DNA from: Methanobrevibacter sp. | Lineage (GTDB): Archaea > Methanobacteriota > Methanobacteria > Methanobacteriales > Methanobacteriaceae | NCBI RefSeq assembly: GCF_017468685.1 | Contig: NZ_JAFUHT010000006.1 | Coordinates: 1-64,000, forward strand | DNA: 64,000 nucleotides | Direction: 5' to 3' | Shown: positions 101-7,653 of the stretch, in pieces | Numbering within the stretch: position 1 is the stretch's first letter | Layout of the letters: each line of letters starts with the position of its first letter | Position numbers and translations under genes: made by a program | The notes under the pieces: model-generated | Told to the model about the DNA's origin: nothing | The model's database searches: none | Seen by the model: only the letters and a program-made list of their open reading frames with translations

Positions 101-709
101 CTAATTTTTATATACTTCAAAAATTTTCTTAGTTTCTATTAGATCAATATATTTTGAATTTTGATGTTCCACTTTTTGAAATACCGACCATGAGATTAAA
201 TCTGCAATTTGCAAACCTTTGTAATTTATTGAATCACCATGCAATATGCTTATAGTATGACCTTCAGAGTTATTTAATTTTGATGAAAACAAATCATTAA
301 AACGATTAATGTAATCTTGATTGAATTTGGACTTGTCTACAATGATACAAGTGGGAGAAGTTATCTTTATTTTTTCAGCTAGTTTTGATGCTATTTCATC
401 GTATAATTCATGATGATTGTAGAAATTTGGTATTTTATCCATGTTTTGTTTATCCAAGTATATTGCAAAGGCCTCATATTCACTATTATTGACTTTTTTA
501 AGTATCTTTTGGATGATACGCTTATCTGTTTTGTTTCCTTTTATCTCAGGAGATTTATGCATAAATTTTCTATTATCTCTCCTTACTTTTTTAATAATTT
601 TTTTAAGAGCCCCTGGACTATCCACTGCAATAGCACCCATGACAAAATGCTTAGTACTGGAACGACCCTCTCCCAAATCCCCACTTTCATCTATGTAAAT
701 ATACTTCAT
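101..709 (-). CDS. DUF3800 family protein
   Basis: The protein opens with YIDESGD, the acidic N-terminal signature of DUF3800, and ends with a GLQIADLISW segment typical of the family's C-terminal half. An internal TCIIVDKSKF strand carries another conserved Asp. At about 202 aa the length is normal for the family. DUF3800 has an RNase H-like acidic pattern, but its function is not established. The start is taken as the ATG at 709; a GTG precedes it in frame. A TATA-like box on the minus strand at 731-740 would place transcription start almost at this ATG, so the mRNA may be leaderless. A foldable RNA follows the gene on the same strand. Confidence 0.8.
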   Translation of the reverse strand: MKYIYIDESGDLGEGRSSTKHFVMGAIAVDSPGALKKIIKKVRRDNRKFMHKSPEIKGNKTDKRIIQKILKKVNNSEYEAFAIYLDKQNMDKIPNFYNHHELYDEIASKLAEKIKITSPTCIIVDKSKFNQDYINRFNDLFSSKLNNSEGHTISILHGDSINYKGLQIADLISWSVFQKVEHQNSKYIDLIETKKIFEVYKN

Positions 710-968
710 CACAGTAAATATATGCCGACATTATTTAAAAAGGTTTTCAAAATCCCCATTATTAATTCTTAAAACAAAATTGATGCCCATTCATAAAATT
801 AACCTCAATTAAACCCTCCCATACTTATATACTAGAACATGAATTAAAAAATATGGTAATTACTGATACATCACAAACTGAAGAAAGATAAACATTGTGA
901 ATAATATCAAAATAATAAAAAATAAATTGAATTAAAATCATGTAACTGACATTAACTCATCATTTGCT

Positions 969-2015
969 TTACAGTTTCTGCGAGTAAACAATAACTTCAC
1001 CATCAACAATTTCCCAAGCGTATTTATGATAAAGTGAAACATTGCTCATGCATTTTATATAATCCAATTTTAAAACATCAGGATTATCCTTAAAATAGGC
1101 TTCCCTTGTTGATCCTTTCCCCCGACCCTGCAAATTATCAATGACATCCATATCCAATAATTCATTTTCCAATGAACCCTGATTCAACATTGACGCATGA
1201 AATTTCCTCAACATATGAGTCCTAAAACGCCTATAACCACCAATAGAACCCAAATTTAAAGAATCATTAACTAATGCAAATTTACGACCAATATAATCAA
1301 CATTATACTTCAACAATGGATTACTTAAATCATAATCTTTTCTTTCAAGCTTGATTTTTGAAATAAACTGCACAGTTTCAGGATTAAGGAACGTATAATA
1401 TGGCTTATCAGTCTTTGCCCGAATCAGCTTACAAGTACAAATAACATCATCATGACAAGACAAATACTTTAAAGCATCCCTGAAATTATCTTTCTTGTGA
1501 TAACCATAAGTTCCTCTAAAAAGCATTTCATTAGTCATTGATTTAGATTCACTTCTAGATGAACCACTAGAAATCATTACCAAAATCCACATACGCAAAT
1601 CATCATCAGCTACGCTGAAAGCCCTTCTAATCTCATCTTTAGATAATAAATCATCATAAGCAATACACTCATTCTTTTTTAAGAATTTATAGTTTAATGG
1701 TGGAAAATATGGTAATTCAATACGATTATAGTAATAAAAAGTTTTAATTTTAGTTATATTTGATTTAACACTATTCGCTTTATAATTGTTGATTAAATAA
1801 TTTCTAAAATCCATAATACGATTAAATAATGATAACTGATTTAAAGGAACAAAATTTTCCTGCTCAAAAACAGCCTCATCCAATAATTGAGTTAAACTCA
1901 TATTATGAAATCGACGATAACAATTAAAAGCACAAGCATATGCTTTTATTGAATTTTTAGAATGACCCGCATTCAAATGAAAATTATTTATTAAGTCAAC
2001 ATCTTCACAAAACAT
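969..2015 (-). CDS. Tyrosine recombinase (integrase family)
   Basis: This site-specific recombinase has an N-terminal SAM-like core-binding region and a C-terminal catalytic domain. Numbered from an upstream in-frame ATG at 2039, Arg162 lies in SSGSSRSES (box I). Lys lies in AKTDKPYY, the H-x-x-R motif is H275-M-L-R278, and the nucleophile is probably Tyr315 in REAYF. The usual LGH before the Tyr is replaced by LQGR, as in many archaeal integrases. The 2015 ATG is preferred because GGAGTG sits 10 nt upstream of it, and a TATA-like box (2055-2066) puts transcription start near 2035, downstream of the 2039 ATG. It lies 3.2 kb from two oppositely oriented 29-bp sites around an adhesin gene and is the obvious candidate to act on them. 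It could also be a leftover from an integrated element, but no att duplication is visible. Confidence 0.85.
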   Translation of the reverse strand: MFCEDVDLINNFHLNAGHSKNSIKAYACAFNCYRRFHNMSLTQLLDEAVFEQENFVPLNQLSLFNRIMDFRNYLINNYKANSVKSNITKIKTFYYYNRIELPYFPPLNYKFLKKNECIAYDDLLSKDEIRRAFSVADDDLRMWILVMISSGSSRSESKSMTNEMLFRGTYGYHKKDNFRDALKYLSCHDDVICTCKLIRAKTDKPYYTFLNPETVQFISKIKLERKDYDLSNPLLKYNVDYIGRKFALVNDSLNLGSIGGYRRFRTHMLRKFHASMLNQGSLENELLDMDVIDNLQGRGKGSTREAYFKDNPDVLKLDYIKCMSNVSLYHKYAWEIVDGEVIVYSQKL

Positions 2016-2105
2016 ATTGTAGAAACACTCCTTTTTCAATAAATTTGAAAAAAAGAGTATTTAAAAAAAAGAATTAATAAAAGTAGAGGTTAAAAAACCC
2101 TACCC

Positions 2106-5176: not shown

Positions 5177-5205
5177 AAGTCGTTTATCATTAGAATAAAC
5201 GACTT
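5177..5205. repeat. Predicted recombination site A (11-7-11)
   Basis: AAGTCGTTTAT (5177-5187) and ATAAACGACTT (5195-5205) are perfect inverted arms around the asymmetric 7-bp spacer CATTAGA (5188-5194). The architecture matches the binding arms and crossover region of tyrosine recombinases such as XerCD/dif or Cre/lox. A second copy at 7491-7519 matches at 27 of 29 positions, with its spacer reversed. The site lies 44 bp upstream of the 1008-aa adhesin gene. A shared operator is the alternative, but that does not explain why the non-palindromic spacer is conserved. Confidence 0.7.
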
Positions 5206-5357
5206 TAACTGTTCATTTTACATGAATTTTTCAAGAATTATTAAAGATGAATAAAAAGTATTTAAAAATTTACTTAGTATATTTAATCTAATTTTTTATC
5301 AATACTACTTTATTCATATGATATTTATTAATTTTAAATAATATAAATATGATGTTT

Positions 5358-5398
5358 ATAAAAAAGAATAATATAGATTATTTAATAAAATAATCTAT
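5358..5398 (-). terminator. Hairpin plus U-tract terminator of the 687-aa adhesin gene
   Basis: A perfect 11-bp AT-rich hairpin (5388-5398 with 5373-5383, 4-nt loop) begins 5 nt past the stop codon. On the minus strand it is followed by a run of six U residues near 5360-5365. It would end the adhesin transcript before it reaches site A and the next adhesin gene. Confidence 0.55.
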
Positions 5399-5402
5399 TA
5401 TT

Positions 5403-7466
5403 TTAATTTTTGTAATCTTCTTTTTCTTCTTTCCTTCTATAACCTATAATTAATAATATTAATGCAGTTAAAACTAGTAATATTGTTTGAATATAATTTA
5501 TATCTGAAGGAGATTCAATTTTTTTTGTTACTTCATATGATTTTAAATTAGAATCAGATGTGTCACTACTGCTTCCTCCAGTACCTGAAGATGAAGAAGA
5601 ACTTGCAATATCTATCCCTGAAGAACCATAATTATAATTTGTTGAATTAATATTTCCACGTTTAGCTTGTGAATAACTGGATTTAGGATTATTTCCAAAT
5701 AATTTAGTTTTTGTAACTCCATTATTACCACTACCAACTCCAATTACTGAATTTCCATCATTTTGTCCAATAAAGGAATTTCCTTCACCACTAAAACCTT
5801 TACCATCACCAGCATTTGGAGGATTGAAAAAATTCTTTAAATGACTGGTATATTCATCAGTACTCATCTTTTTAACTGGAAAAGAACCATCAGTATTATT
5901 GATAATAATGTTTTTACGATTTCCAAGACCTGTTATTAAAGCAGCTTTATTTCCACCAGCATGCGCTGTTTTTAAAATGTTATTTGCAATAATGGAATTA
6001 GCAACACGAGTGTTTCCTCCCAATAATGCAACTGCATATTGCCCATTAGTAGTTACGTTATTATATTGAACATTATAAGAATGTGAACCCCCAGTTTTTT
6101 GAGAATAACTTATTCCATAAATATTGGCTCCAGGAGTAAATTCATTAACTGAATTTACAATAATAGTATTATTCATTATAATGTCGTCTGAATCCTGCAC
6201 TTCAATTCCACTAACTAGCGACCATGAATGTGAACTTGCATATCCAGTAACATTAATAAAATTACTAATAATTCCAACTTCTGTAGATCCATAATAATTT
6301 TGAGAATAAATACCAATATTCGGACCATTACTGATAGAACTTATATTATTAAAAGCTACTTGAATTCCACGAGCAGGGCCTGTTATTTGAACAGGATATG
6401 CAGTACCTGCTGCATCTTTACCTCCAGTTGTCTTTAAATGAATATTATTGTGGTAAATCACAACGTAATCAGATAAATACAAATCAAGACCATATAAATA
6501 ATTAACGGTTCCTTTTGGAGTGATATAATCCTCTTCATATATATCATTATATTGGATAATAGCATTATTACATTCATAGATTAAACAGCTATCAAGAGTT
6601 GGTGAACCTCCAGTTCTTTTATTAACAATAGTTCTGATAGAATTATTTGACAATAATAAATTATTACAATTATCTGCTACAAAAGAAGCTACAGAATCCA
6701 TACTACTTCCAATAAAAATTTCACCACTCCAATCAACATCTCTTAAAGGTAATTGACAATTAATGACATTGCCGGTAACTTTGGCGTTTTCTGTACGGAT
6801 TAAAACTATTCCATAATTATATCCTTTAGTTGCGAAATTTCCAACATAATTGATAGTATTATTAATTAAATGTACATCAGTTATTTCATCATAACCTTTA
6901 TTACAAGTAATTCCAAATCCAGTACCTCTTTCAGGAACATTATAATCCATAATTATGTTTTGAACAGTTACATTATTTGCTTTAATAAATATCCCTGAAT
7001 ATTCATTAGTTGGATATGTTTCATTTAAAACGAATTTTAAATTACTCAACATTATTCCATCAGCTTTTAAATTAAAAACAGTATTGTTAAATAATGTATT
7101 TCTTCCTGTAATTTTAGTGTTTGCGGAGTTAATGGTAATTGTTCCCTTGTCTGTGAATTCACCATCAAAAGTTATAATTTGACCACCATACTCTTTTTTT
7201 AAAACATTATCCTCATCAAAAAACATTTTATAGTTTCTTTGATTAACTACCCAATTTTTAACATCACTACTTAATTCTTCAGTGCTGATATTGGAAGAAG
7301 AATAGGGTTCTCCATTATCAACTTCAATACTTAAATTATCATTATTCTTCAAAGTCAAGTTGTCATTATCGACTTTTGAGGCAGAAATTAAACTAATACT
7401 AAATAATAATATTAAAAATATTGAAATCAATAATAAATATCTATTTAATTTCAATTTAAATCCCAT
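5403..7466 (-). CDS. Adhesin-like surface protein, membrane-anchored beta-helix
   Basis: This is a 687-aa exported protein. Residues 1-29 are a signal peptide (LLLISIFLILLFSISLISAS). Residues about 90-520 are right-handed parallel beta-helix (NosD-like) with repeated Asn-rich rungs such as VTVQNIIMDYN. A Ser/Gly-rich stalk covers about 590-645, a single membrane helix about 657-678 (QTILLVLTALILLIIGY), and a charged tail RRKEEKED follows. Unlike its neighbour at 2106-5132, it is anchored by a helix. No LPxTG-like sorting motif is seen. A purine-rich AGGAAGG lies very close to the ATG. The gene is flanked by two oppositely oriented 29-bp sites, suggesting on/off switching by inversion. The ligand is unknown. 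Confidence 0.85.
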   Translation of the reverse strand: MGFKLKLNRYLLLISIFLILLFSISLISASKVDNDNLTLKNNDNLSIEVDNGEPYSSSNISTEELSSDVKNWVVNQRNYKMFFDEDNVLKKEYGGQIITFDGEFTDKGTITINSANTKITGRNTLFNNTVFNLKADGIMLSNLKFVLNETYPTNEYSGIFIKANNVTVQNIIMDYNVPERGTGFGITCNKGYDEITDVHLINNTINYVGNFATKGYNYGIVLIRTENAKVTGNVINCQLPLRDVDWSGEIFIGSSMDSVASFVADNCNNLLLSNNSIRTIVNKRTGGSPTLDSCLIYECNNAIIQYNDIYEEDYITPKGTVNYLYGLDLYLSDYVVIYHNNIHLKTTGGKDAAGTAYPVQITGPARGIQVAFNNISSISNGPNIGIYSQNYYGSTEVGIISNFINVTGYASSHSWSLVSGIEVQDSDDIIMNNTIIVNSVNEFTPGANIYGISYSQKTGGSHSYNVQYNNVTTNGQYAVALLGGNTRVANSIIANNILKTAHAGGNKAALITGLGNRKNIIINNTDGSFPVKKMSTDEYTSHLKNFFNPPNAGDGKGFSGEGNSFIGQNDGNSVIGVGSGNNGVTKTKLFGNNPKSSYSQAKRGNINSTNYNYGSSGIDIASSSSSSGTGGSSSDTSDSNLKSYEVTKKIESPSDINYIQTILLVLTALILLIIGYRRKEEKEDYKN

Positions 7467-7490
7467 TCCTTCCTTTTATTAATAATGATG

Positions 7491-7519
7491 AAGTCGTTTA
7501 TTCTAATGATAAACAACAT
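7491..7519. repeat. Predicted recombination site B (11-7-11, inverted copy)
   Basis: The left arm AAGTCGTTTAT (7491-7501) is identical to site A. The spacer TCTAATG (7502-7508) is the exact reverse complement of the site A spacer. The right arm ATAAACAACAT (7509-7519) differs from the site A arm at two outer positions. The site lies 24 bp upstream of the 687-aa adhesin start codon. Opposite spacer orientation predicts inversion rather than deletion of the intervening DNA. Confidence 0.7.
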
Positions 7520-7520
7520 A

Positions 7521-7530
7521 ATCATTTAAA
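7521..7530 (-). promoter_or_regulatory. TATA-like box just outside site B
   Basis: On the minus strand TTTAAATGAT lies immediately outside the predicted invertible segment. A start about 25 nt downstream would fall near 7501, inside site B, giving a leader of roughly 35 nt to the adhesin ATG. If this is the promoter it stays fixed while the gene flips. The region is very AT-rich, so other TATA-like choices exist, including within the site arms. Confidence 0.35.
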
Positions 7531-7653
7531 TTGTAAAGTAAAATTTAATAAAATTTTAACAATACGGAATAGTATTTACTTTAATAAATTATTAATTTAC
7601 TTTACTATTTATTATATTTATTAATTACATTAATAAATTTTTACCCAAAAATG

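Follow-up and report, generated by a model that had tools for sequence, protein, structure and literature searches.

The locus examined here lies in a window of 64,000 nucleotides from Methanobrevibacter sp. (assembly GCF_017468685.1, contig NZ_JAFUHT010000006.1, positions 1 to 64,000 of the forward strand). At its left end, two adhesin genes, a recombinase gene and two short inverted sites lie close together, and the following features were delimited:

101-712, minus strand: DUF3800 protein, downstream of the recombinase
969-2039, minus strand: tyrosine recombinase (putative invertase), 356 aa from a TTG, or 969-2015 from the first ATG; just downstream of adhesin 1 and outside the predicted invertible segment
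2106-5132, minus strand: adhesin 1, 1008 aa, with beta-helix and Ig-like domains
5177-5205, unstranded: recombination site 1 (11-7-11), 45 bp upstream of adhesin 1
5206-5340, minus strand: inferred promoter region P1 of adhesin 1
5206-7490, unstranded: predicted invertible segment, holding the adhesin 2 gene and the promoter region of adhesin 1
5403-7466, minus strand: adhesin 2, 687 aa
7491-7519, unstranded: recombination site 2, the inverted copy, 25 bp upstream of adhesin 2
7520-7650, minus strand: inferred promoter region P2 of adhesin 2, outside the segment
7654-8073, minus strand: PIN-domain protein, upstream of the switch (a similar gene also lies near adhesin 2 in the related genome G006)

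Inverted sites and recombinase at the adhesin locus

Site 1 reads AAGTCGTTTAT CATTAGA ATAAACGACTT and site 2 reads AAGTCGTTTAT TCTAATG ATAAACAACAT. The two are identical at 27 of 29 positions as an inverted repeat and their 7-bp spacers are exact reverse complements, so that the original prediction of two 29-bp sites with 11-bp arms upstream of two adhesin-like genes was fully borne out. The pattern had no match in 100 dinucleotide shuffles of the window, indicating that none is expected by chance. A search for other copies in the same genome, which had been put forward in advance as a check, found none in the 2.28 Mb with up to three mismatches. Similarity stops at the site borders (flanks 9/30 identical, which is chance level), so the sites are not part of a larger duplication.

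The window recombinase itself was not called by Pfam (including PF00589) or NCBIfam. Nevertheless, it has the tyrosine-recombinase catalytic residues in order (R162, K209, H275xxR278 and Y315), and these are invariant in a 17-sequence alignment of its clade, whose members are 55-66% identical to it. More distant relatives at 31-34% identity exceed the PF00589 cutoff, and the missing call is a limit of the library model rather than the lack of a defining biochemical feature. A first structure model from a shallow alignment was poor, whereas a model built on 27 sequences gave a mean pLDDT of 89.8, and all 27 PDB matches of this predicted fold with E below 0.001 (Foldseek) are tyrosine recombinases, namely XerA, XerH, integron integrase, Cre, lambda Int and a mycobacteriophage integrase, with XerA, XerH and Cre the closest. 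The clade was found in one of 17 genera searched in the family (15 of 139 genomes), it mostly lies directly downstream of adhesin genes, and the only named relatives found are Methanobrevibacter assemblies. A gap of about 250-300 bp before most sister recombinases (loci L043-L055) holds a conserved CAGTAACATAACTTATATAT-like block, possibly the recombinase's own regulated promoter. In addition, a palindrome GATTGGGAAAA-n7-ATTTCCCAATC, which may be a terminator or another kind of site, lies near recombinase genes in two genomes (L040:4187 and L041:3151).

It is possible in principle that the enzyme is the integrase of a mobile adhesin island that acts on attachment sites elsewhere and has nothing to do with the palindromes. 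Distant relatives (34-37% identical) do occur in viral contigs, and relatives at about 35% identity are common across the genus, making a mobile-element origin of the enzyme plausible, although such an origin does not explain the site pairs. However, no other mobile-element genes lie beside it in the window, the clade sits with adhesins in most genomes, and intact site pairs were found only in genomes with the recombinase gene or its pseudogene (see below). We consider this reading very unlikely.

Recurrence of the layout in related genomes

Searching the genus with the 29-bp pattern and relaxed versions of it found only this genome and the genome G038, which at first looked like evidence against a general system; the sites turned out to be locus-specific. 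A search of a viral collection gave one pattern match, which was not pursued, and no relative of adhesin 2. Orthologues of adhesin 2, by contrast, revealed the same layout (layout A) with different site sequences (loci L057, L058, L109 and L107). Genomes G044 and G049 have AATTTAGTATATTCGTAGAATATAC and its inverse at 24/25. Contig C55 of G023 and a second adhesin-2/adhesin-1 locus in the window's own genome (G000:C74, L107:4486-6876) share sites of the type TTGCAGTGTAT-TAGTAAT-ATATACTGCAA. The C74 pair has a one-base insertion in one spacer, so this copy may be locked; another contig of this genome, C30, starts with a 63% identical recombinase (L041:71-1117) that may belong to it. G063:C11 has one good site and one eroded one. 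Most of these copies share a core GTNTAT-n7-ATANAC. Each pair matches within its own genome while the sequence differs between lineages, which is concerted evolution of two sites in opposite orientation. Among 14 adhesin-2 loci of at least 50% identity, intact pairs occur in 5 of 7 from genomes with the recombinase gene or pseudogene and in 0 of 7 from genomes without (p=0.01), although the classification is our own and the loci are not fully independent.

Several other candidate pairs were set aside. An inverted pair at L106 looks like insertion-sequence ends around a transposase remnant, direct pairs at L102 and L104 are parts of longer repeats, and the control hits in L137 are concentric and look like one long inverted repeat. 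In G063:C27, several genes share direct-repeat promoter sequences ending in TATAGTATATAAA (L104:8333 and 16426, 4698 and 6525), a possible shared regulon.

Recombinases of the same clade (55-59% identical to that of the window) also accompany a sister design (layout B), in which a promoter-bearing segment of about 0.6-0.8 kb, bounded by inverted 11-7-11 sites mostly with an RGAT-n7-ATC core, lies 66-103 bp upstream of an adhesin gene, usually of about 500 aa. The recombinase sits in the same cluster, either next to the segment (G018) or about 11-14 kb downstream on the same strand (G010, G020, G040, G053 and G063:C16); in G040 only one site of the pair was recognised. Scans limited to about 10 kb around these recombinases missed most of the sites, which lie upstream of the first adhesin. 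A scan for the best inverted 29-mer upstream of these adhesins, without a preset motif, found 11 such pairs, and scores of 25 or more, reached by 8 of the 11, did not occur in 290 random genomic windows. In all 11 loci the spacer is identical 7/7 within the pair, whereas arms match only 187/242 (77%) and spacers differ between loci (p=5e-8; p=5e-6 on 8 loci after removing near-duplicates). Over the 11 loci, a conserved TATA-like block (consensus near TTTATATTAATA) faces the adhesin in 7 and away in 4. In G018 a terminator-like hairpin lies just inside the adhesin-proximal site.

Two of these loci hold an almost identical segment in opposite orientations. The 714-bp segments of G020:C140 (21240-22011; L197:15740-16511) and G065:C24 (L205:3424-4195) are 706/714 identical (98.9%) in opposite orientation, against 229/714 in the same orientation, while the left and right flanks are collinear and 97% and 95% identical in the same orientation. 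The alignment switches exactly at the sites, so inversion has occurred exactly between them. No recombinase was seen on the short G065 contig, and many of the genomes examined are draft assemblies. As the site cores differ between the two layouts, the sister switches are related evidence and not the same switch.

Predicted working of the switch and alternative readings

These data lead us to propose that the locus is a phase-variation switch of archaeal surface adhesins, a reading to which we assign a probability of roughly 0.78. In this model, the tyrosine recombinase binds the 11-bp arms of the two sites and exchanges strands within the identical 7-bp spacers, inverting 5206-7490. Promoter-like blocks conserved in orthologues, including ones without an intact site pair, lie inside the segment for adhesin 1 (P1) and outside it for adhesin 2 (P2, with a AGTAAAGTA block conserved in orthologues without sites). 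In the assembled orientation P2 would read through site 2 into adhesin 2 and P1 through site 1 into adhesin 1, whereas in the flipped orientation adhesin 2 would point away from P2 and P1 away from adhesin 1, so that both should be off. Our analysis demonstrated the site architecture, the identity of the recombinase by motif and predicted fold, the recurrence of the layout with locus-specific, pair-matched sites, and natural inversion of a sister switch in relatives whose clusters carry the same recombinase family; that this recombinase acts on these sites, that this segment flips, where the promoters lie and what the phenotype is are inferences. The link between each recombinase and its sites is by position, that is, genetic and not biochemical, and neither the dependence of inversion on the recombinase nor its effect on expression was measured.

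The original prediction, that a linked recombinase inverts the 2.3-kb segment with the 687-aa adhesin and so phase-varies a surface protein, is supported in part. A recombinase-linked invertible adhesin switch is the best-supported reading, but the earlier picture of one phase-variable adhesin missed that the segment also carries the adhesin-1 promoter region, and that the system belongs to a genus-wide family with two layouts. Related genomes were also compared for flipped copies, as had been proposed beforehand, a constant orientation having been named as evidence against inversion: the flipped junction is absent from the 67 genus genomes searched and every layout-A locus seen faces the same way. 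Neither sequencing reads nor same-species strains were included, and for the window segment the existence of both orientations is thus neither documented nor excluded.

The uniform orientation of layout A is also what would be expected if the switch were real by descent but this copy were locked, with relic sites or an inactive enzyme. The recombinase is a pseudogene in G044 and G049, where the spacers differ at one base, and one site of G063:C11 is eroded. G038 retains a single related site with a truncated adhesin 2 and no close recombinase, and G001 has what looks like a decayed site; both are consistent with decay after loss of the enzyme, although this is not proof of it. In the window, however, the recombinase ORF is intact with all catalytic residues and the spacer match is exact. 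Loss of activity of this particular copy cannot be excluded and is the main rival, although we regard it as unlikely.

ALTERNATIVES. The palindromes could instead be operators of a dimeric transcription factor that co-regulates the two adhesin genes without recombination, given that both sites lie between promoter-like blocks and start codons and that the arms are palindromic. However, an operator needs neither inverted orientation nor identical spacers, yet spacer identity, which strand exchange requires, is kept in the 11 sister loci while the arms diverge. A separate promoter-proximal motif (AGTAAAGT/AGTAAAAT) lies in the same orientation at both genes and persists where no intact sites exist, and inversion at such sites is directly visible in G020 versus G065. 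This reading is therefore improbable. Still less likely is that the palindromes act as RNA hairpins in the 5' leaders of the adhesin mRNAs. The window sites do fold well as RNA (z -6.0 and -4.2), but the equivalent G023 sites do not fold clearly better than shuffles (z -1.9 and -1.1) although their pair identity is kept, and hairpins explain neither the inverted loop identity nor the inversion seen in the sister switches.

Relation to known inversion systems

Phase variation by DNA inversion is classical in bacteria and has been found in a haloarchaeal virus (PMC4284463), but one read-mapping survey found no inversions in its six archaeal datasets (PMC5903667). A paper on methanogen adhesin-like proteins does not mention inversion, recombinases or phase variation (PMC11532034), and a 2025 review leaves archaeal phase-variation loci to future work (PMC11868660). 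We found no report of such inversion for archaeal surface proteins in the open-licence papers searched, so an earlier report elsewhere cannot be excluded. The broader reading, which we hold to be as probable as that for the locus, is that cellular archaea of this Methanobrevibacter-type genus possess their own family of recombinase-driven phase-variation switches for surface adhesins, with a 0.6-0.8-kb promoter flip and a 2.3-kb adhesin-cassette flip that silences two adhesins at once. If confirmed, host-associated methanogens use the same bet-hedging on adhesion as gut bacteria, which would bear on colonisation and partner choice, and a compact archaeal invertase with many natural site variants would become available for study. 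The sister switches make the claim testable from existing sequencing reads.

The proposed mechanism is itself of a recognised type. As in the fim-type switches of bacteria (FimB/FimE promoter inversion and related tyrosine-recombinase invertons), there is a linked tyrosine recombinase with short inverted sites and adhesin genes as the target, and the sister switches flip a promoter-sized segment; however, the host is archaeal, the recombinase is only about 17% identical in its best PDB alignments, and the window's version would flip a whole adhesin gene plus the next gene's promoter, with the predicted silencing of two adhesins. The tail-fibre inversion of the haloarchaeal virus PhiCh1 (PMC4284463) is likewise archaeal and recombinase-linked and varies adhesion proteins, but it is viral, its recombinase gene lies inside the invertible segment and its inversion swaps the 3' ends of coding genes, whereas here the recombinase is outside and the sites are between genes. 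Shufflons (Rci-type) share a tyrosine recombinase with inverted sites and, if the proposed switch operates, variable surface proteins, but they have several sites within coding sequence giving variable C-termini, while the present genome has only two sites, both outside coding sequence, so that no protein fusions are made. XerA/XerH-dif chromosome resolution provides the best structural matches of the recombinase and also has 11-bp arms around a short central region, although the match is structural only (13-18% identity), and here there are two inverted sites beside adhesins and a clade confined to one genus of the family searched.
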